Positions 28,021-39,997 of a stretch of DNA of 64,000 nt are shown piece by piece (within the stretch, counting starts at the first letter, position 1; each line of letters starts with the position of its first letter). Location: the NCBI RefSeq assembly GCF_900104335.1, contig NZ_FMXT01000001.1, positions 744,001 to 808,000 of the forward strand, given 5' to 3'. Both the position numbers and the translations under genes were made by a program. The notes beneath the pieces were generated by a model. It saw only the letters and a list, made by a program, of their open reading frames with translations. It was not told the DNA's origin and searched no databases. The DNA is from Pseudobutyrivibrio sp. YE44. Lineage in GTDB: Bacteria; Bacillota; Clostridia; Lachnospirales; Lachnospiraceae.

Positions 28021-30381
28021 TTAGTTAAAACCTAAAGCAAGACCTGTTGCTCTAATCAGGAAGGCAATGATCCAAGCCACTGCACACTGGAATATTACCA
28101 TCTTTAAAGCTGCTCGCTTTCCTGCTTCTCGCTTTTCTGCAGCAATTGCAGCTACACATGGTGTGTAAAGCAAACAGAATACCAAGAATGCAAAGGCTGT
28201 AAGCGGAGACATTGCAGCACGAAGACCTTCAACACCACCATAAAGTACAGTAAGCATTGATACCACACTTTCCTTTGCAAGGAAGCCTGAAATCAATGAT
28301 GTAACCATCTTCCAATCTCCAAATCCAAGAGGAACAAAGATTGGTGCAAGTATGCCAGCTAAGGCTGCAAGTATGCTATCCTCTGAGGACTCTACCATAT
28401 GGAAGTAAAAATTAAAGTTCTGCAAGAACCATACCACAATTGTGCCAAGGAAGATGATGGTAAAGGCTCTCTGAATGAAATCCTTTGCCTTATCCCACAT
28501 AAGCATCAATACGTTTTTAAGTCCTGGTAATCTATAGTTTGGAAGCTCCATAACAAATGGAACTGCTTCACCCTTGAACAAGGTGTTCTTAGAACAAAGT
28601 GCAACGATTACAGCCACAACTACACCAATTAGATAAAGACCTACCATTACAAGCGCCGCTTTCTTTGGGAAGAAGGCTGCCGCAAAGAATGCATAGATAG
28701 GCATCTTTGCGCTACAACTCATAAATGGAATAAGTAGCTGTGTCATCTTTCTATCTCTATCTGATGGTAAGGTTCTTGTGGACATAATAGCTGGCACGGA
28801 GCATCCAAATCCAATAAGCATTGGCACGATGCTTCGACCAGAAAGACCAATTCGTCTTAACAGCTTATCCATCACAAAGGCAACTCTGGCCATATATCCA
28901 CTATCTTCTAGCATAGATAAGAAGAAATACAAAACCACGATGATTGGTACAAAGCTAAGAACTGAACCAACTCCTGTGAAAATAGCATCTATAATCAACG
29001 AATGAATTGGTGCTGCCACATTTGCTGCTGTAAGAACATTATCTACAGAGTCAGTTATGGCACCAATTATTGTTTCTAATACTCCCTGTAAAAAAGCGCC
29101 AACCACATTAAAGGTAAGGTAAAAAACAAGAGCCATTATTCCAATAAAAGCAGGAATCGCTGTCCACTTACCAGTAAAGAACTTATCAAGATTTCTACTT
29201 CTAATATGCTCCTTACTTTCCTTAGGCTTAATAATAGTCTCTTGACATATACGATTGATAAAGGTGAATCGCATGTCTGCCATCGCAGCAGCTCTGTCTA
29301 AGCCTCTCTCCTTTTCCATTTGAAGAATAATCTTTTCTAAGGTGTCTGCTTCGTTTTCATCTAAAGCAAGCGCCTTTGAAACAAGAGAATCTCCCTCAAG
29401 AAGCTTTGTAGCAGCAAATCTAATTGGAATATCTGCCTTTTCAGCGTGATCCTCAATCAAGCTCATAACACCATGAATAGCACGATGAACTGCACCATTA
29501 TGGTCTTCCTTGCCACAGAAATCTGTACGGCCTGGCTTTTCATTATACTTTGCAATATGAATAGCATGAGCCACAAGCTCTTGGATACCCTCGTTCTTTG
29601 AAGCTGAGATTGGTACTACAGGAATCTGCAACAAATCCTCAAGCTCATTAATAAGAACTGAACCGCCATTTCCTGCCATCTCATCCATCATATTAAGTGC
29701 AAGGATTGTAGGAATCTCAAGCTCTAAAAGCTGCATTGTCAGATAAAGATTTCTCTCGATATTGGTAGCATCAACAATGTTAATAATGGCTGATGGCTTT
29801 TCCTCTAAAACGAATCTACGAGATACAACCTCTTCGCTTGTATAAGGGCTCATCGAATAAATACCAGGCAAATCAACTACCTCAGTATTTGGATATCCCT
29901 TAATAGAGCCGCTCTTTCTGTCAACTGTTACACCTGGGAAATTTCCCACATGCTGATTAGCACCAGTCAGCTGGTTAAATAGTGTCGTCTTTCCGCAGTT
30001 TTGATTACCAACAAGAGCAAAGGTCAGCTTGCCAGTGTTAACCTCTTTTGCTTTATGCTCCACCTCATAATCATGGGTAAAGGCTTCCTCACCAAGTGCT
30101 GGATGAGGTATTCCTTTGCTGTGAATATTATTATTTTTTTCAACCTCTGCGGTATCTCTTATGTTTTCTATTTCAATCTGCTTTGCATCTGCCAGTCGGA
30201 TTGTAAGCTCATATCCGGAAATGCGAAGCTCGATTGGGTCCCCCATTGGAGCATATTTTATCATGGAAACATCAGAGCCAGGGATGATTCCCATGTCCAA
30301 AAAATGCTGACGCAGGGCACCGCTTCCGCCTACAGTAGTAACTGTGGCAGTTTTACCGATTTCAAGTTTACTTAAATTCAA
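28021..30381 (-). CDS. feoB: FeoA-FeoB fusion ferrous iron transporter
   Basis: A 786-residue fusion. Residues 1-75 are a FeoA (SH3-like) domain. Residues about 115-290 are the FeoB G domain with GNQNCGKTTLFNQL, DLPGIYS and NMMD. From about 395 onward come the membrane helices with two gate regions. It imports Fe2+ across the membrane. TTG start with AAAAGGAAAA upstream. Located between an EAL-domain regulator and a partner-switch pair on the same strand. Iron demand fits the many Fe-S enzymes of the sulfur island. Confidence 0.9.
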   Translation of the reverse strand: MNLSKLEIGKTATVTTVGGSGALRQHFLDMGIIPGSDVSMIKYAPMGDPIELRISGYELTIRLADAKQIEIENIRDTAEVEKNNNIHSKGIPHPALGEEAFTHDYEVEHKAKEVNTGKLTFALVGNQNCGKTTLFNQLTGANQHVGNFPGVTVDRKSGSIKGYPNTEVVDLPGIYSMSPYTSEEVVSRRFVLEEKPSAIINIVDATNIERNLYLTMQLLELEIPTILALNMMDEMAGNGGSVLINELEDLLQIPVVPISASKNEGIQELVAHAIHIAKYNEKPGRTDFCGKEDHNGAVHRAIHGVMSLIEDHAEKADIPIRFAATKLLEGDSLVSKALALDENEADTLEKIILQMEKERGLDRAAAMADMRFTFINRICQETIIKPKESKEHIRSRNLDKFFTGKWTAIPAFIGIMALVFYLTFNVVGAFLQGVLETIIGAITDSVDNVLTAANVAAPIHSLIIDAIFTGVGSVLSFVPIIVVLYFFLSMLEDSGYMARVAFVMDKLLRRIGLSGRSIVPMLIGFGCSVPAIMSTRTLPSDRDRKMTQLLIPFMSCSAKMPIYAFFAAAFFPKKAALVMVGLYLIGVVVAVIVALCSKNTLFKGEAVPFVMELPNYRLPGLKNVLMLMWDKAKDFIQRAFTIIFLGTIVVWFLQNFNFYFHMVESSEDSILAALAGILAPIFVPLGFGDWKMVTSLISGFLAKESVVSMLTVLYGGVEGLRAAMSPLTAFAFLVFCLLYTPCVAAIAAEKREAGKRAALKMVIFQCAVAWIIAFLIRATGLALGFN

Positions 30382-32224: not shown

Positions 32225-33157
32225 TTACTCTGTAAATAATGGTGTTGAATAATATCTATCGCCTGAATCAGGAAGAAGAGCTACGATTGTCTTGCCTTTA
32301 TTCTCTGGCTTCTTTGCAAGCTCTATTGCACCGTGAAGTGCAGCGCCTGATGAAATACCAACAGAGATGCCTTCCTTCTTTGCAAGAAGCTTTGCAGCTG
32401 CAAACGCATCCTCAGCCTCTGCTACGAAAATATCATCATAAATCTTTGTGTTAAGAACATCTGGAACAAATCCTGCACCGATACCCTGAATCTTGTGAGC
32501 ACCTGCACGGCCCTCAGAAAGAACTGGAGAATCCTTTGGCTCAAGTGCTACAACCTTAACATCTGGGTTCTGTGACTTTAAATATTCACCAACACCAGTA
32601 ACTGTGCCACCAGTACCAACACCAGCAATAAAGATATCAACCTTTCCATCTGTGTCCTTCCAAATTTCAGGACCAGTTGTGTTGCGGTGCGCCTCTGAGT
32701 TTGCTGGGTTTACAAACTGTCCAGGAATGAAGCTTCCCTCGATTTCAGCTGCAAGCTCCTCAGCCTTTGCGATAGCACCCTTCATACCCTTAGCACCTTC
32801 TGTAAGCACAATTTCTGCACCATATGCCTTAAGGATATTTCTACGCTCTACTGACATTGTCTCTGGCATTGTAAGGATTGCACGATATCCCTTAGCTGCT
32901 GCGATGGCTGCAAGACCAATACCTGTGTTTCCTGATGTAGGCTCAATGATAACTGAACCTTCCTTAAGCTGTCCCTTCTTCTCAGCATCTTCAATCATAG
33001 CAAGAGCTACCCTATCCTTTACTGAACCAGCTGGATTAAAGTATTCAAGCTTTACAAGAACTGTAGCCTCAAGGCCAAGCTCCTTCTCAATGTTTGTCAC
33101 CTCAACAAGAGGTGTGTTACCGATAAGCTCTGATGCGCTCTTAAAAATATTAGACAT
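32225..33157 (-). CDS. cysK: O-acetylserine sulfhydrylase (cysteine synthase)
   Basis: A 310-residue PLP enzyme. PLP-binding Lys in GSVKDRVA (about 45), the TSGNTG substrate loop near 72, GTGGTVTGVG phosphate cradle and EGISVGISSGAA near 265. It makes cysteine from O-acetylserine and sulfide. It is 62 bp downstream of metY and shares its sulfur-regulated promoter. CysE in the same island supplies O-acetylserine. Confidence 0.9.
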   Translation of the reverse strand: MSNIFKSASELIGNTPLVEVTNIEKELGLEATVLVKLEYFNPAGSVKDRVALAMIEDAEKKGQLKEGSVIIEPTSGNTGIGLAAIAAAKGYRAILTMPETMSVERRNILKAYGAEIVLTEGAKGMKGAIAKAEELAAEIEGSFIPGQFVNPANSEAHRNTTGPEIWKDTDGKVDIFIAGVGTGGTVTGVGEYLKSQNPDVKVVALEPKDSPVLSEGRAGAHKIQGIGAGFVPDVLNTKIYDDIFVAEAEDAFAAAKLLAKKEGISVGISSGAALHGAIELAKKPENKGKTIVALLPDSGDRYYSTPLFTE

Positions 33158-33219: not shown

Positions 33220-34551
33220 TTAAACGGCCTGGCTATTTGAATTTGAATCCGCATTTACGTTATTGATTCCGTCAATTGCTGCAAAACCCTTTTCAAGATC
33301 TTCAATGATGTCATCAATATGCTCTGTACCGATTGAAAGTCTGATTGTAGACTGTGTAATTCCCTGATCAAGTAACTCTTCCTCTGTAAGCTGTGAGTGA
33401 GTTGTTGTAGCAGGATGAATTACTAAGCTCTTAACATCTGCAACGTTTGCAAGAATAGAGAAAATCTGAAGATTATCAATAAACTTGTATGCTGCTTCCT
33501 TGCCGCCCTTAATTTCAAAGGTAAAGATGCTACCGCCATTCTTAGGGAAGTATTTCTTGTATACTTCGTGATCTGGATGATCTGCCAAAGAAGGATGATT
33601 TACCTTAGAAACCTTTGGATGATTCTTAAGGAACTCTACAACCTTTGTGGTATTTTCTGCATGTCTATCGAGACGAAGTGGAAGTGTCTCAATTCCCTGA
33701 AGAAGAAGGAATGCATTAAATGGAGAGATTGTAGCTCCAGTGTCGCGTAGTAAGATTGCTCTAATGTATGTTACAAATGCAGCTGGTGCTGTTGCATCTG
33801 CAAAAGAAATACCATGATAGCTTGGATTTGGCTCTGCAATGGCAGGGAACTTTCCACTCTTCTTCCAATCATAGGTACCAGCCTCAACGATTACACCACC
33901 AAGTGTTGTTCCGTGTCCACCGAAAAACTTTGTTGCTGAATGAACTACGATGTCTGCGCCGTGCTCGATAGGACGTACCCAATATGCTGCACCAAAGGTG
34001 TTATCTACTACAAGTGGTAAATCATGTCTGTGAGCGATTTCTGCAAGTGCATCAATATCAGGAATATCAGAATTTGGATTTCCAAGTGTCTCAATGTAGA
34101 TTGCCTTTGTGTCTTCCTGAATAGCATCCTCAACCTCTTTAAGATTGTGAGCATCTACAAATGTTGCTGTAACACCATACTGTGGAAGTGTATGTGCAAG
34201 TAAGTTGTAGCTTCCACCGTAGATTGTCTTCTGTGCTACGATGTGTCCACCTCCTGCTGCCAAGGCTTCGATTGTGTATGTGATAGCTGCTGCTCCAGAT
34301 GCAACTGCAAGTGCTGCTGTGCCACCTTCAAGAGCTGCTACTCTCTGCTCTAAAACACCCTGTGTTGAATTTGTAAGTCTTCCATAAATATTTCCTGCAT
34401 CTGCAAGACCAAATCTATCAGCTGCGTGCTGTGAATCTCTAAATACATATGAAGTTGTCTGGTAAATAGGTACTGCTCTTGCGTCAGATGCTGGATCTGG
34501 ATTTTCCTGTCCTACGTGAAGTGCTAATGTTTCGAATCTATAGTTTGCCAT
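33220..34551 (-). CDS. metY: O-acetylhomoserine sulfhydrylase
   Basis: A 443-residue Cys/Met-metabolism PLP enzyme. ETLALHVGQENPD at the N-terminus, YGRLTNSTQ, DNTFGAAY and the PLP Lys in HSATKFFGGHGT (about 210) mark the MetY group. It makes homocysteine from O-acetylhomoserine and sulfide or a protein thiocarboxylate. A 17-residue Asn/Ser tail is unusual. Translation starts behind AAAGGAG, 30 bp after a cysteine-rich leader ORF; the promoter carries the island operator. Confidence 0.9.
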   Translation of the reverse strand: MANYRFETLALHVGQENPDPASDARAVPIYQTTSYVFRDSQHAADRFGLADAGNIYGRLTNSTQGVLEQRVAALEGGTAALAVASGAAAITYTIEALAAGGGHIVAQKTIYGGSYNLLAHTLPQYGVTATFVDAHNLKEVEDAIQEDTKAIYIETLGNPNSDIPDIDALAEIAHRHDLPLVVDNTFGAAYWVRPIEHGADIVVHSATKFFGGHGTTLGGVIVEAGTYDWKKSGKFPAIAEPNPSYHGISFADATAPAAFVTYIRAILLRDTGATISPFNAFLLLQGIETLPLRLDRHAENTTKVVEFLKNHPKVSKVNHPSLADHPDHEVYKKYFPKNGGSIFTFEIKGGKEAAYKFIDNLQIFSILANVADVKSLVIHPATTTHSQLTEEELLDQGITQSTIRLSIGTEHIDDIIEDLEKGFAAIDGINNVNADSNSNSQAV

Positions 34552-34581
34552 AATTTTAATCTCCTTTATTAAACAAAATTT

Positions 34582-34665
34582 TTAACAACAGTAACAGCAA
34601 CAACAACCCTGCATTCGTTGATATTTGCAATTGTGTCTTACAAAAGAAATTAAAAGTTTTTTCAT
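34582..34665 (-). CDS. Cysteine-rich leader peptide before metY
   Basis: A 28-codon frame in the metY 5' leader: ATG at 34665, stop TAA at 34582-34584. The 27-residue product has seven cysteines and ends MQGCCCCYCC; six of the last seven codons are Cys (TGT/TGC). A plausible TAGGTAG ribosome site lies 8 nt upstream. It starts about 48 nt after the predicted transcription start and ends 30 nt before the metY ATG. Leader peptides rich in the end-product amino acid are classic attenuation sensors. Translation is not proven. Confidence 0.65.
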   Translation of the reverse strand: MKKLLISFVRHNCKYQRMQGCCCCYCC

Positions 34666-34719
34666 TTTGAACTACCTACCCTTTCGATACATTTTCTTGT
34701 GTTTTTTCTTGTTGAAAAG

Positions 34720-34753
34720 ATATTATTACATATTACCTACTAGGTCAATAGGT
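34720..34753 (-). promoter_or_regulatory. metY promoter with sulfur operator
   Basis: On the minus strand: TTGACC (34743-34748), 17 bp, TAATAT (34720-34725). The -35 box is embedded in the dyad ACCTATTGACCTAGTAGGT (34735-34753). The same arrangement occurs at 55673-55706 and, in a variant, at 40984-41040. Confidence 0.75.
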
Positions 34754-34768
34754 TTTAAGATAAAGAAA

Positions 34769-34811
34769 AACTATAGCCAGTTATCAATGAAATTTATAAC
34801 CAGCTATAGTT
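34769..34811 (-). terminator. Terminator after MATE gene
   Basis: A 16-bp stem with two mismatches (AACTATAGCCAGTTAT facing ATAACCAGCTATAGTT), ending 10 bp past the MATE stop and followed on the minus strand by TTTTTCTTT. Confidence 0.7.
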
Positions 34812-34820
34812 ATATTTTTA

Positions 34821-36206
34821 TTAAAGTGCCTTTACAGTATTTGATGCCTCTCGTTTTTCATTCAATAGCGGTAACAAATTTATGTATAACGCATATGCGT
34901 TAATAACAAGCGCTCCTACCCAAGCACTAATTTCTGCATATGGCGTTGCTTTGAAGCCTATCCTTCCGATGAAGAAAGAAATCACAAACACTCTAAGAAT
35001 CATCTCTGCTATTCCAGAAATCATAGGAAGCATTGGCTTGCCCATTCCCTGGACTGTAGCCCTCACTATAAAGAGTATGTTAAGGAAGATAAGCATTATT
35101 CCACATCTTGGAAGGAAAATACAAACCAACTTAATCTGTTCTTTTCCATCCAAAAGAAAATCTCCAAGCTGCGCTGGCAAAAATACCATAATTGAACCAA
35201 GTATAAGATAGAAAGCTAGGACCATCTTTAGTCCAACCTTAACCCCTTCTTTGATTCTGCCATACTCTTTTGCACCGTAGTTTTGACTAGTAAATGCAGT
35301 AATAGCATTTCCTGTGGTTCCTGCTGGATTCATAAATAAATTCAAGTACTTTGAGCAAACAGCATAAGAAGCCGTGTAAACTACACCATATCCATTTACA
35401 AAGGCTTGAACCACCATGCATCCCACTGCAGTGATGGAATTCATAAGTGCCATTGGAAGACCGTTTTTTAGAAGCTCCCAAAAGATATATCCTTCATTAT
35501 TGAAGTACTTCTTTTCAAGTCTAATCAGATCTATCTGTCTAAGACTATTTATACATATAATTACAGAAATCACTTGAGCAACTACAGTTGCAATGGCAGC
35601 ACCCTCTACACCTGAATGCAACACAAAGATAAATAGACTATCTAAGGATAGATTCACAATTGAAGAAAACAAAATTGCATTCAAAGGTGTTTTACTATCC
35701 CCTAAAGAACGCAACACTGATCCAGCAATGTTATAGGCAATTCCCACAGGCAACCCACCAAATACAATGTAGCCGTATTTTAAACTGTCTTTCATGATAA
35801 CAGGGTCAGTGTTCAAAAATATAAGAAGCTTTGGAAGAAATACTATGCTAAAGGTTGATAGCACAATAGCAAGAATAACTCCCAGCTCAATGGTTGCAGC
35901 TAGTCTGTGTCTAAGCTGTTCTACATCCTTCGCGCCATAGCTTTGTGCAATGAGAACAGCAAAACCATTGGCAAGGCCAAAAGAAAATCCTACTATTAAA
36001 AAGAACAACGAGCCCATATTACCAACTGCGGCAAGAGCATTATCTCCAAGTCCTCTTCCTACAATTAAGGTATCAACAAAGTTATATACCTGCTGAAGCA
36101 TGCTTGTCATAAAGAGTGGCCAAAAGAAAGCCAATATCAGCCTAAAAGGACTTCCCTGTGTAAAATCAATATCCTTCTTTTTTGTGTTATTAAATAGTTT
36201 CACCAT
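34821..36206 (-). CDS. MATE-family efflux transporter
   Basis: A 461-residue protein with twelve hydrophobic segments in two similar halves, beginning GSPFRLILAFFWPLFMTSML. GRGLGDNALAAVG and YGAKDVEQLRH are typical MATE signatures. It exports organic cations or drugs using Na+ or H+. The frame opens 69 bp further upstream inside the cooS terminator; GAGGG before the ATG at 36206 fixes the start. It lies between the cooS operon and metY but has its own terminators, so a sulfur role is doubtful. Confidence 0.85.
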   Translation of the reverse strand: MVKLFNNTKKKDIDFTQGSPFRLILAFFWPLFMTSMLQQVYNFVDTLIVGRGLGDNALAAVGNMGSLFFLIVGFSFGLANGFAVLIAQSYGAKDVEQLRHRLAATIELGVILAIVLSTFSIVFLPKLLIFLNTDPVIMKDSLKYGYIVFGGLPVGIAYNIAGSVLRSLGDSKTPLNAILFSSIVNLSLDSLFIFVLHSGVEGAAIATVVAQVISVIICINSLRQIDLIRLEKKYFNNEGYIFWELLKNGLPMALMNSITAVGCMVVQAFVNGYGVVYTASYAVCSKYLNLFMNPAGTTGNAITAFTSQNYGAKEYGRIKEGVKVGLKMVLAFYLILGSIMVFLPAQLGDFLLDGKEQIKLVCIFLPRCGIMLIFLNILFIVRATVQGMGKPMLPMISGIAEMILRVFVISFFIGRIGFKATPYAEISAWVGALVINAYALYINLLPLLNEKREASNTVKAL

Positions 36207-36325: not shown

Positions 36326-38446
36326 TTAATCCCAGCCTAGAGCCTTTCTCTTTTCCTTCATATCATTTACAATCTGCTTTGCAAGCTCCACTGGATCCGT
36401 ATTTACGTTCATGGTAGAACCAAGCAATTCCTTTGTTCCATATTTCAGGAATTCAATTACATTCTTTGAACCATAAATTGGTGCCTCCACGCAGTGATAT
36501 GAACTGATTCCATTAAGTCTGAAGCCAAGTGCTGCATCGATTCCTTTTTCATTTCCCCACTCAGGTGATGAAAATGCAAATGGAAGCTCGTAAAGATTCT
36601 TCCCTAACTCGCCTGCAATACCTGCAAAGATTCCTGTTGAGCGTGTATTATCAATACACTCTCCCACATGCCATACTGGTGGTAAATCTGGCTCAAGGAA
36701 TTCTCGAAGAGACTCTCCAGCCTTTTCTTTTCCTGATACAGCACAATATCCTAACTTCATAAGTGGGAAGGATGCACATCCATTAGTGATGATAAGTACA
36801 TTGTTCTTAAGAAGCTCATCTGCCACATCAATAATACATTTCTCGTAAAGTACTTTAGGATTGTTACAGCCAACCATATTTACTACACCAAGAATCTGAC
36901 CTGATTTAATAGCCTCAGCAAGTGGCTTCATGCTGCCAAATCTTCTGTGGATGTATTCAACAGAAAATCCCACCTCTGCCTCTACCTCATATGGTGGTAT
37001 GTAAACTGGAATTCCTTTTCTATCCTCAAAGCTTTCAATGGCACGTCTTACAATTTTTTCAGCAAGCTCCTTTGTCTGACCAATGTTGCTGTGATGATGA
37101 TCATATTCATAGCGCTCTGCACCTGGAAGACGAGCCGAATCACTTGTGGTAACAACAACTGTCTTAAAGCATTTAGCCACATCCATAATAGATGGGAAAA
37201 CATCCTGCACATCAGCTACCCACAAATCAAGAGCACCTGTGCCAAGAACAAGTTCTGCCGACACTGCATTTGAAAGAGGAATAACGCCGCTGTCTCTGTA
37301 CATTGCAGAAAGACCAGAACAGCAAATACCGTAAAAACGAATTCCTTTAGCTCCTTTTGATTTTGCAAGTTCTACTAAATCTTCTCTCTTTCCAGCAGCC
37401 ACTATCTGACTAACAAGAGTTGGAAGATGGCCGTGAACAGCAACATTAACATAGCCCTTCTCAAGAGCTCCTATATTAACCTTAGAGGTTACTCTATCTC
37501 CAACACCAAATAACGAGTCTGTGGCAAGGCTGGCTCCTACCACCCCTGAGAAGGTAAAGGCAAGACCACAGCGAAGGAATTGCTGCATGATGCTCTTCCA
37601 GTCACCATCAGTTGCGCAACCTGACTTGTGATATGCTTCAAACACCTCGTGATAAGCGCTTATAGGAAGGATGTCTAATTCCTCCCACACCTTTTGGCGC
37701 TCTAGCAAAGCACAGGCTCTGATGGTTTTATAATCATCAGGTACAGTTCTTGATAAGTCCTCCAGCAAAACATCTGCTAAATCCTTAGCAACGTTCTTAA
37801 GCTGTCGGTTCTTTTCTCTAATACCAAAAGCCTTAGCTGTACTTCTGATTTTCTGTTCGCCAAGAAGTGGAATATCAAGTTCACCTTCTGCAACCTTCTT
37901 TAAAGTGAGCATTACCTCTCGGGCGTGCATACCGTGCTGTGCTGCACCAGCTGCTGCGGAGCGAAGTAGGTTTCTAGCTACAATCAAATCTGCATCTGCA
38001 CCACAGACACCTCTCTGAGCCTTTGCTGTAATTCTACAAGGTCCCATGTTACAAATCTTACAGCAGGTACCACATAACCCGAAATTACACTGAGGCTTTT
38101 GAGCATCAAATCTATCGAAGGCTGTATCAATTCCAAGCTGCTCCATTCTAAGAAGCATATCCCTTACTGCTGGGTCCGGAGTCTGATCAATTACATCCTG
38201 CTTCGATGGAAAGGTCTTTCGATATTCCTGGACAGCATTCATATAATCTTTTGTGAAATCCTCTGGGCTGCTCTCTCCGCCATGGTCGCTAGCTTTAAGT
38301 GTAACTGTAGGAATTCCATGCTCATCAAAACCTATTAAATTTCTGTGTGAGTGGATATGCTCAAGACCATGCTTTCCATGAGAATGATTGTGTTCATGGC
38401 TGTGACAGTGCTCATGTGTATGTTCTTCTGTATGTGTGTGACTCAT
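36326..38446 (-). CDS. cooS: Variant Ni-Fe carbon monoxide dehydrogenase
   Basis: A 706-residue CooS homologue. The first 34 residues hold 14 His, a likely nickel-binding tail. The B/D-cluster cysteines are all present (QKPQC, GLCGTCC, KICNMGPC, GVC). For the active C cluster, His in VAVHGHLP and Cys in GICCSG, MVGCNNPK, TNGCASF and VGECIDN are kept, but the DVQC cysteine is Asp (VADVQDVFPS). Two His of the proton relay are also missing. CO oxidation may therefore be lost or changed. It is last in an operon with a sulfonate-type ABC transporter behind the sulfur operator. GGGAG precedes the ATG. Confidence 0.8.
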   Translation of the reverse strand: MSHTHTEEHTHEHCHSHEHNHSHGKHGLEHIHSHRNLIGFDEHGIPTVTLKASDHGGESSPEDFTKDYMNAVQEYRKTFPSKQDVIDQTPDPAVRDMLLRMEQLGIDTAFDRFDAQKPQCNFGLCGTCCKICNMGPCRITAKAQRGVCGADADLIVARNLLRSAAAGAAQHGMHAREVMLTLKKVAEGELDIPLLGEQKIRSTAKAFGIREKNRQLKNVAKDLADVLLEDLSRTVPDDYKTIRACALLERQKVWEELDILPISAYHEVFEAYHKSGCATDGDWKSIMQQFLRCGLAFTFSGVVGASLATDSLFGVGDRVTSKVNIGALEKGYVNVAVHGHLPTLVSQIVAAGKREDLVELAKSKGAKGIRFYGICCSGLSAMYRDSGVIPLSNAVSAELVLGTGALDLWVADVQDVFPSIMDVAKCFKTVVVTTSDSARLPGAERYEYDHHHSNIGQTKELAEKIVRRAIESFEDRKGIPVYIPPYEVEAEVGFSVEYIHRRFGSMKPLAEAIKSGQILGVVNMVGCNNPKVLYEKCIIDVADELLKNNVLIITNGCASFPLMKLGYCAVSGKEKAGESLREFLEPDLPPVWHVGECIDNTRSTGIFAGIAGELGKNLYELPFAFSSPEWGNEKGIDAALGFRLNGISSYHCVEAPIYGSKNVIEFLKYGTKELLGSTMNVNTDPVELAKQIVNDMKEKRKALGWD

Positions 38447-38462
38447 TTTAATTCTCCCTTTA

Positions 38463-39236
38463 CTAAATGTTGTATTCAATATTCTCTTCCGTCTTCATGT
38501 TCAGCAAGTCAAATATCTTATCTCTGACTAACAAGAAATCTCCGCTGGTTCTATCTCTGAAATGATGAAGAGGAACTGTAATAACCCCTTTTACTTTGCC
38601 AGGATTAGGTGTCATTACTACAATTCTATCTGCTAAATAAACTGCTTCTTCTATATCGTGAGTTACAAAGATGATTGTCTTCTTTTCGTTTTTGCAAATA
38701 TCCAAAATATCATCCTGAAGCTTCATTCTGGTGATAGCATCCAGCGCGCCAAAAGGCTCGTCCATGAATATAATATCTGGCTCAACCGCAAGGGCTCTTG
38801 CTATTGCAACTCTTTGCTTCATACCACCTGAAAGCTGTCGCGGAAAGCTATTTGCAAAGTCTTCCAGCTTTACTAACTTCAAATACTCTAGCGCCTTTTC
38901 ACGCCTAGCTTTTTTATCAATGCCCTGTGCCTCAAGACCCAGCTCTACATTCTTTACAACAGTGCGCCATGGCAACAGACCATAGTTTTGAAATATGGTT
39001 ACGTTCTTTGTACTTGGAGCTGTAACCTCTTTTCCATCTATTTGCACTCTACCATGATTTGCCAAATCAAAGCCTGCGATAGCGTTAAGTAATGTGCTTT
39101 TGCCGCAGCCAGATGGACCAAGAAGACATATAAACTCACCTTTTTCTATATCAAGGTTAACCTCAGTAAGAGCTGTGAACTCTGTGCCATTTTCTGTGAA
39201 GGTTTTCCCTGCATTTTCTATATGAATGTATGACAT
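38463..39236 (-). CDS. ABC transporter ATPase, nitrate/sulfonate type
   Basis: A 257-residue ATPase. Walker A LGPSGCGKSTLL, Q-loop, signature LSGGMKQRVAIARAL, Walker B DIIFMDEPFGALD and a switch His in FVTHDIEEA. It matches the SsuB/TauB/NrtD group. Its start overlaps the permease stop by 1 bp. With the permease and binding protein it forms a complete importer for a sulfonate, sulfate ester or similar anion. Confidence 0.85.
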   Translation of the reverse strand: MSYIHIENAGKTFTENGTEFTALTEVNLDIEKGEFICLLGPSGCGKSTLLNAIAGFDLANHGRVQIDGKEVTAPSTKNVTIFQNYGLLPWRTVVKNVELGLEAQGIDKKARREKALEYLKLVKLEDFANSFPRQLSGGMKQRVAIARALAVEPDIIFMDEPFGALDAITRMKLQDDILDICKNEKKTIIFVTHDIEEAVYLADRIVVMTPNPGKVKGVITVPLHHFRDRTSGDFLLVRDKIFDLLNMKTEENIEYNI

Positions 39237-39997
39237 TACTGTTCACCTCCCCATGCCTTTAAGATTCTCTTCTCTGCAAGTCCAATTAAGAAATCAAGCA
39301 ATAATCCAATGAGACCAATCACAAGGATTGTAGCTAAAAGAATATCTGCTCTAATGTTATTTCTCGCATCAATTATCTGATAGCCAAGTCCTGACTGGGC
39401 ACCTACCATCTCACCTGCCACAAGGAAAATCCATGCACTTCCAAGCGCAAGGTGAATAGCGTTTGCAATCTGTGGGAATGCGGCTGGTAATATCACCTTC
39501 CACATAAGTGCCGGCTGCTTTATTCCAAAGTTGTCAGATACTCTGAAATAAATATCATCTATTTTTGATACAGCAGACACTGTAGATAGAAGAACTGGGA
39601 AAAATGCTGCTATGAAAATGATGACGATTGCTGGTAAATCTCCAATTCCAAAAAGTAAAACCACAAATGGCATCCATGCTGTTGGTGATATTGGTCGAAG
39701 TAACTGCAAGGTTGGATTCACATAGTTAAAAACCCTTGGCAGACTTCCTAGAATCAATCCTAAGAAAACTGCAATAATTACAGACAGGCCATAGCCAATT
39801 ACAAATCTGTACATACTTGCTGCGATTGATGCAATAAGCGTTCCATCTGATATCATTTCCACCAAGGCTTGTAATGCCATAAGAGGTGATGGAAATAATG
39901 CTTCGCTATAATCACTTATGATAAATGCCAATTGCCAGATTCCTATTAATATTAATATTGATACAACTACATATTTGAAAGAGATTAATTTCTTCAT
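39236..39997 (-). CDS. ABC transporter permease, nitrate/sulfonate type
   Basis: A 253-residue membrane protein with about six helices and the EAA-loop (VILPAAFPQIANAIHLALGSAW) that contacts the ATPase. It belongs to the SsuC/TauC group. It sits between the binding protein and the ATPase. Confidence 0.85.
   Translation of the reverse strand: MKKLISFKYVVVSILILIGIWQLAFIISDYSEALFPSPLMALQALVEMISDGTLIASIAASMYRFVIGYGLSVIIAVFLGLILGSLPRVFNYVNPTLQLLRPISPTAWMPFVVLLFGIGDLPAIVIIFIAAFFPVLLSTVSAVSKIDDIYFRVSDNFGIKQPALMWKVILPAAFPQIANAIHLALGSAWIFLVAGEMVGAQSGLGYQIIDARNNIRADILLATILVIGLIGLLLDFLIGLAEKRILKAWGGEQ

Follow-up and report, generated by a model that had tools for sequence, protein, structure and literature searches.

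A conserved cysteine-rich leader peptide upstream of metY in Pseudobutyrivibrio and its relation to a wider family of putative sulfur-gene leaders

The metY-cysK locus and its leader ORF

The stretch of DNA analysed here, called the window below, comprises 64,000 nucleotides of Pseudobutyrivibrio sp. YE44 (contig NZ_FMXT01000001.1, positions 744,001 to 808,000), and Table 1 lists the features under discussion, all of which are on its reverse strand. Upstream of metY and cysK lies a short upstream ORF (uORF) with seven Cys codons, six of which are held by the last seven codons, as the preliminary description of this DNA had stated. Among the 1152 window ORFs of at least 15 amino acids, the uORF is alone in having four or more Cys in its last seven residues, and 20 local shuffles of the window gave no such ORF. 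The transcription start predicted from the sequence lies about 48 nt before the uORF ATG, which indicates that the uORF is not leaderless, and its ribosome site departs from the textbook form.

Table 1. Features of the metY leader and its surroundings (positions are those of the window)
Feature	Position	Strand	Basis or remark
uORF, leader peptide MKKLLISFVRHNCKYQRMQGCCCCYCC, 27 codons + stop	34582..34665	-	Full-length homologues upstream of metY in 11 other genus genomes
C-terminal Cys run CCCCYCC, codons 21-27	34585..34605	-	Sequence
CGA-AUG (Arg17-Met18), most conserved dicodon of the leader family	34612..34617	-	
Cys13 codon	34627..34629	-	Last position from which a single stalled ribosome is predicted to free the metY ribosome site
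Predicted anti-Shine-Dalgarno segment TTTTAATTTCTTTTGT, uORF codons 4-9	34640..34655	-	Folding prediction
Partner segment ATAAAGGAGATTAAAA, containing the metY Shine-Dalgarno AAAGGAG (34561..34567)	34554..34569	-	Folding prediction
uORF ribosome site AAAGGGTAGGTAG	34672..34684	-	Sequence; kept in relatives
Promoter TTGACC-17-TAATAT	34720..34748	-	Motif match and conservation in relatives
Operator-like site ACCTATTGACCTAGTAGGTAAT, inner palindrome ACCTAGTAGGT (34735..34745)	34732..34753	-	Overlaps -35
metY, O-acetylhomoserine/O-acetylserine sulfhydrylase	33220..34551	-	TIGR01326, 617.2 bits
cysK, cysteine synthase A	32225..33157	-	TIGR01139, 448 bits; downstream of metY

The promoter had been called well formed in the preliminary description, and it is indeed conserved in relatives, but the motif match by itself is at chance level (3 found vs 2.3 expected); the evidence for the promoter is therefore its conservation. 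A leader stacked on a repressor site had also been proposed, and we have found a conserved operator-like palindrome over the -35 element, a putative site that would add transcriptional control of metY. A 17-base form of this site was present in 34 of 80 metY upstream regions vs 0 of 80 shuffled ones. As a marker of a regulon the site was dropped, because the whole genome gave a single match when up to three mismatches were allowed.

No terminator-like site was found in 34400..34900, in agreement with the preliminary description, though relatives in other genera appear to use a terminator; this locus resembles classical attenuators in its short ORF that carries control codons and precedes a biosynthetic gene, and lacks their terminator in that region. 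The peptide had no match in NCBIfam or Pfam, and ten relatives had none in NCBIfam and, in Pfam, three weak matches below the cut-off (E 0.0068-0.093). Rfam gave no match in the window at gathering scores and none in 34400..34850 at E up to 1, so that the leader does not have the signature of a cysteine T-box riboswitch. In an Rfam scan of 30 loci, nothing was found at the leader in 28, and the other two matched a c-di-GMP riboswitch and a tRNA, both elsewhere in the locus.

Several other features of the window can be recorded here. An inverted repeat, CTATAGCTGGTTAT...ATAACTGGCTATAG, followed by a T run (34766..34809, minus strand) lies between a MATE-type gene and the metY promoter and is likely to be the terminator of that preceding gene; similar repeats precede the metY promoter in many relatives, even where the preceding sequence is different. 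The ORF at 36326..38479 (minus strand) encodes an anaerobic CO dehydrogenase catalytic subunit (TIGR01702, 491.7 bits) with a His-rich N-terminus, SHTHTEEHTHEHCHSHEHNHSHGKHGLEHIHSH, and is directly behind taurine/nitrate-type ABC transporter genes (38463..39997). Judging from its translation only, a 786-aa ORF at 28021..30381 (minus strand) resembles a FeoA-FeoB fusion for iron transport.

Conservation and loss of the leader within the genus

A profile built from eight distinct peptides was used to search 29 genomes of the genus, and full-length leaders were found in 12 of them, all directly upstream of metY; ten had E-values of 2e-16 or lower (the source sequences of the profile included) and two diverged ones had 8e-5 and 2e-4. 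The eight distinct peptides all agree at M1, K2, L4, L5, I6, F8, V9, R10, H11, N12, R17, M18 and Q19 and at the last two Cys, and the two diverged peptides differ at several of these positions. The peptide under study is 63-78% identical to the siblings retrieved by a profile of peptides from outside the genus (see below). In nine distinct uORFs, variable columns are found at 17 of 27 third codon positions and at 10 first and 11 second positions. The preliminary description had called the peptide poly-cysteine after its Cys-rich end; the last two Cys are invariant as mentioned, but the run varies, the 12 genus peptides having between 3 and 6 Cys near the C-terminus, and what the alignments point to as conserved is the core FVR.N....RM followed by cysteines, more than the Cys run.

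A metY gene was found in 25 of the 29 genomes (the four with no hit are 77-87% complete), and the uORF is present in 12 and absent from 13 of these metY-bearing genomes. The proposal that a leader peptide exists in a Clostridia sulfur operon is borne out by these 12 genomes, and on the sequence evidence we regard the uORF as a real, conserved leader peptide. The preliminary description had also held that it should be conserved wherever promoter and metY are; this applies to 12 genomes, but the other 13 keep metY without the ORF and 12 of them keep the promoter, an absence that the metY tree reads as repeated loss. These 12 genomes retain both promoter and palindrome, with a metY leader of just 42-60 nt. 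In the thirteenth (G004), metY is more distantly related (81% N-terminal identity), and both promoter and palindrome are absent from the 220 nt examined. At two of the uORF-less loci (L052 and L058), part of the uORF ribosome site survives and passes directly into that of metY, suggesting the footprint of a uORF deletion. The distribution of the uORF on the metY tree needs five changes, only two of which are forced by well-supported branches, and the simplest account is that the uORF was gained once, at the base of a 16-row group (support 91/71), and lost about four times.

A wider family of leaders before sulfur genes

A search for short ORFs ending in poly-Cys had been recommended in the preliminary description. 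In the form of a peptide profile it finds the 12 genus leaders, but the bare pattern of five TGY codons followed by TRR, which matched 44 of 299 family genomes, was rejected: in the 30 loci retrieved, no match proved to be a short ORF preceding a sulfur gene, and the Cys run alone is for this reason a poor search handle.

For a survey beyond the genus, 80 metY loci were taken from 594 matching stretches, picked for metY and not for cysteine, and were searched for a core pattern, [RH].N[FYWC][RKN]..[RV]M, and a variant pattern, RM..SR. The core was present upstream of 27 of the 80 metY loci, with no occurrence on the opposite strand or beyond metY in the same 80 loci and none in 20 shuffled sets; the variant was present upstream of 17, with 0 and 0 in the two place controls and a mean of 0.45 (maximum 2) in the shuffles. 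Two loci have both patterns, giving 42 distinct loci. The carriers belong to Clostridia, Negativicutes and Treponema, and include Treponema zioleckii (L160; Spirochaetota), Anaerovibrio lipolyticus DSM 3074 (L129; Negativicutes) and many Clostridia MAGs (labels as in the records).

When 26 peptides from outside Pseudobutyrivibrio were made into a profile, seven of the ten distinct genus peptides were among the best 25 of 10,010 entries and six outscored all 10,000 shuffled decoys; the peptide under study was missing from these best 25. Profile scans added ten core leaders among 16 loci inspected, bringing the total outside the genus to 52. In the phylum scan, 15 of 299 genomes matched at E <= 0.05, the present one included and mostly weakly, and four of the other 14 loci were inspected, one of which (L191) has the core before metY; the order scan gave matches at E <= 0.01 in 18 of 392 genomes, of which five belong to the genus, and nine of the 12 loci inspected from the 14 outside the genus have the core. 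The gene directly downstream is metY in the present genome and in eight of the ten scan leaders, and in the remaining two a sulfate ABC transporter binding protein (L219) and a nitrogenase-component-like protein (L214). Members of at least two phyla therefore carry the core before sulfur genes, but its distribution is sparse, and the best reading of the Pseudobutyrivibrio leader, on these sequence comparisons, is as one branch of a family with the core (L/V/F)VR.N[FYWC][RK]..RM. In the open-licence literature searched, we have found no description of this family.

Two observations on individual members may be added. The leader at L214 (Lachnospiraceae, G032; MLNLFESLLRQNFRCGRMYSCS...) stands before a nitrogenase-component-I-like gene, whose product is perhaps a sulfur-salvage reductase under the same control. 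At L115, L164, L183 and L158, a short hairpin directly follows the stop of the Spirochaete-type leader (GGCTGAAAG..CTTTAGCC; GACTGAAA..TTTAGTC), with apparent compensating changes as judged by eye.

Cys codons and the CGA-AUG dicodon at the core

Outside the genus, 46 of the 52 leaders have a Cys within eight codons after or four before Arg-Met, and Cys makes up 19% of the codons flanking Arg-Met in these 52 leaders vs 1.3% in 30 window ORFs. The profile that retrieved the ten scan leaders contained Cys columns; the other 42 leaders did not come from it. Six leaders have no Cys beside the core, and three of these (L116, L165 and L218) end GRM-stop. The Arg-Met itself is written CGA-AUG in 59 of 64 leaders, the present one included (37 of 42 survey loci, 10 of 10 scan leaders and 12 of 12 genus leaders), counts in which related rows are not independent. 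Split by pattern, 22 of the 27 core loci and all 17 variant loci have CGA-AUG, and the five exceptions are all in Spirochaete-type loci (GTC three times, CGG and CGC). In metY of the 42 loci only 12 of 547 Arg codons are CGA, and the remaining two Arg of the core are written with several codons. CGA is not rare in ORFs of the present genome (53 of 455 Arg codons, 12%, in 30 window ORFs), so the bias is less telling within the genus. No conserved structure around CGA-AUG was seen in the consensus of the 17 variant loci.

These results bear on the possibility of an arrest peptide, in which the chain VR.N[FY]R.GRM together with CGA-AUG would pause the ribosome from within the exit tunnel, a small sulfur metabolite perhaps serving as co-effector, and the Cys codons would do no more than tune the response. 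Such a peptide would fit the retention of the core where Cys has been lost, as in the three leaders ending GRM-stop, as well as the CGA-AUG preference and the freedom of the other two Arg codons. We nevertheless consider it unlikely, in view of the Cys found at the core of most leaders, the chain before Cys-Arg-Met that is unconserved in the 15 loci with the RM..SR variant only, and the ordinary frequency of CGA in the genus.

In another reading, the heart of the family would be a codon-specific pause at VR.N[FYW]R.G plus CGA-AUG, the speed at CGA being set by a sulfur- or SAM-dependent modification of the tRNA-Arg(ICG) anticodon loop (s2C32, or m2A37 made by RlmN), so that sulfur status would be read twice, via CGA and via the neighbouring Cys codons. 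CGA is read by tRNA-Arg(ICG), s2C32 restricts this reading, and RlmN is a SAM enzyme. A TtcA-like protein was found in 15 of 20 leader-bearing genomes (157-225 bits, all below the curated cut-off); two had no TtcA match and three had matches of 45-58 bits, and three of these five have CGA. Leaders in TtcA-poor genomes weaken the s2C32 form, in which CGA senses tRNA thiolation by TtcA, and we disfavour it; RlmN is present in 19 of the 20 genomes, which excludes nothing. The s2C32 modification occurs in tRNA-Arg(ICG), derives its sulfur from cysteine and has no counterpart in B. subtilis (PMC5372745), and RlmN modifies tRNA-Arg(ACG), its loss lowering CGT and CGA decoding in Vibrio cholerae (PMC12588516). 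Taken as a whole, we judge this double reading distinctly unlikely.

Terminator-type relatives

In all 17 RM..SR loci, CTCCCGG lies within the codons of S-R-(A) and is followed by CCGGGAG, with which a hairpin opens; this hairpin has a T-rich tail in 16 of the 17, L135 being the one without. The consensus fold of the 17 loci has a 10-bp pairing of the CTCCCGG and CCGGGAG segments, as expected of an antiterminator. In 14 of the 15 variant-only loci the Cys codons are just before CGA-AUG, about 14 nt before the pairing segment, and with this spacing a ribosome waiting for Cys-tRNA would leave the pairing segment free. The wiring of these loci is, on this sequence evidence, that of classical attenuation. 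A strict terminator finder reported sites in 6 of 23 leaders, two of them inside the uORF and probably due to chance; the assignment for the RM..SR loci rests on the two pairing segments and the T-rich tail, not on this finder.

Predicted pairing of the uORF with the metY ribosome site

A translational mechanism had been considered likelier than attenuation in the preliminary description, and folding predictions have supplied a candidate for it. In six species of the genus, the present one included, the metY Shine-Dalgarno is predicted to pair with uORF nucleotides 17-24 and is unpaired at only 0.00-0.02, vs means of 0.52-0.70 in shuffled sequences; in each of the six species, 0 of 200 shuffles were as low as the real leader. 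The consensus fold of the six has two helices, one of 16 pairs that joins codons 4-9 to the metY ribosome site and one of 5 pairs that joins codons 11-12 to the last two Cys codons. Neither helix has covariation, and nearly all columns of the pairing helix are invariant in the six species. The codons for LISFVR are identical in all six; at the metY rate, 44 of 107 columns of this kind, the chance of this is 0.0048, and the same identity is seen in 4 of 308 metY windows of six codons. However, codons 5, 6, 8 and 10 are invariant in the non-pairing species too. For the whole leader of the present genome, the gain in folding over shuffled sequences is only moderate (z -2.36, equalled by 5 of 200 shuffles). 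Outside the genus, the 5% level is reached by only 6 of the 25 leaders that could be tested, and their partners differ.

In the other six species of the genus, the metY Shine-Dalgarno is open (0.83-0.92), as it is in the 12 uORF-less relatives (0.51-0.88), and these six leaders must work otherwise. In the consensus fold for these six, the Cys codons are paired to the ribosome site of the uORF itself; this candidate has no covariation and was set aside, the single-species tests being not significant (fractions 0.09-0.99). The open sites in half of the genus leaders, together with a gap from uORF stop to metY that ranges from 29 to 64 nt, are what would be expected if uORF ribosomes simply protected the 5' end of the mRNA or fed re-initiation at metY, with no specific RNA switch. 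However, such stabilisation or coupling leaves the strong pairing in the six other species unexplained, as well as the terminator wiring in other genera, and we think it very unlikely.

The explanation we prefer for the pairing species is a translational attenuator that works through the Shine-Dalgarno pairing. In the free mRNA, uORF codons 4-9 would pair with the metY Shine-Dalgarno and metY would be poorly translated; when Cys-tRNA is scarce, ribosomes would wait at the uORF Cys codons, and one waiting at Cys13 would cover the anti-Shine-Dalgarno segment and expose the metY start. Alternatively, that segment would be covered by a ribosome queued behind another held at the first C-terminal Cys. 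With ample cysteine, ribosomes would clear the uORF and the pairing would return.

These steps were modelled with the ribosome as a 31-nt footprint of unpaired bases, its bulk and the kinetics being ignored. With Cys13 in the A site, the access of the metY Shine-Dalgarno was 0.46, 0.53, 0.50 and 0.27 in G000, G010, G022 and G005, respectively (0.18-0.54 with a 27-nt footprint), and with a ribosome from codon 16 on it was at most 0.03 (31 nt). Four of the six pairing species have Cys13, whereas none of the non-pairing species does, Tyr being found there instead. A single ribosome anywhere in the Cys run leaves the Shine-Dalgarno closed (0.00-0.16). A stall at the first C-terminal Cys with one queued ribosome gave access of 0.49, 0.83 and 0.79 in three of the six species and 0.02-0.21 in G005, G024 and G011, and a stall at the last Cys with a queued ribosome gave 0.00-0.02.

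Interpretation and relation to known systems

On the basis of the sequence comparisons and the folding model, we think it probable that the leader makes metY, and probably cysK behind it, sensitive to cysteine as a translational attenuator acting via the Shine-Dalgarno pairing. The parts of this reading differ in strength: the leader is very likely translated and regulatory; cysteine is likely the signal, judging from the codons, the downstream genes and the terminator-type relatives; and the Shine-Dalgarno pairing as the switch in the present species is plausible as a model. A functional small Cys-rich protein for metal or thiol binding, instead of a cis-acting leader, would agree with the amino-acid conservation, but it is extremely improbable, since all 12 genus copies are directly upstream of metY, the number and spacing of Cys vary, the C-termini that follow the core before metY in other genera are unrelated, and the protein-family searches gave no match for the peptide.

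Polycysteine attenuators of mycobacteria have reportedly been presented by Canestrari et al. in 2020, under a title that calls the ORFs leaderless, whereas the uORF studied here has a 5' untranslated region and its own ribosome site. Leaders with Cys runs and without terminators have been described for Mycobacterium, P. acnes and B. longum (PMC1262725), and the present leader resembles these actinobacterial ones in its Cys run near the stop of a short ORF upstream of sulfur genes, here a sulfur operon, and the Mycobacterium ones also in having no conserved terminator. It differs from them in its conserved non-Cys core, in CGA-AUG, in the predicted pairing of early codons with the metY Shine-Dalgarno, in belonging to another phylum and in having metY downstream. 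The same source describes the LEU element of actinobacterial leuA, in which leucine codons pair with the leuA Shine-Dalgarno; in both systems uORF codons pair with the Shine-Dalgarno of the next gene, but the LEU element uses its run of control codons, while the present leader would use early codons, its final Cys codons pairing with codons 11-12.

Two tandem Cys codons in a short upstream ORF are shared with the uORFC-8-2 motif before cysS of Rhodobacterales, for which ribosome-mediated attenuation has been proposed (PMC8632094). That motif has an intrinsic terminator and precedes cysS, whereas the present leader has no terminator; our 17 terminator-type loci are nearer to it in wiring, yet carry CGA-AUG and have metY downstream. 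In Clostridia, cysK-cysE and cysP have been described as under cysteine T-boxes (PMC2940859), which likewise sense Cys-tRNA upstream of cysteine genes, but T-box RNA reads the tRNA directly, with no peptide, and the present leader has no Rfam match. Histidine leaders have been reported in Firmicutes in a review of premature terminators (PMC2965389).

According to these sources, Cys-codon leader peptides have been known so far from Actinobacteria and Rhodobacterales, and the described Cys-tRNA sensor of Clostridia is the T-box. The present comparison shows a leader family in Clostridia, Negativicutes and Treponema that is tied to metY and occasionally to sulfate uptake, and in which closely related leaders appear to be wired differently: to a terminator in some genera, to the ribosome site of the next gene in half of the genus, and to neither in the other half. 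The genus Pseudobutyrivibrio offers a ready comparison, because 12 species with the uORF and 12 without it have the same promoter, and the near-invariant CGA-AUG is a precise and easily tested regularity. The leader family also makes a set of unannotated genes findable.
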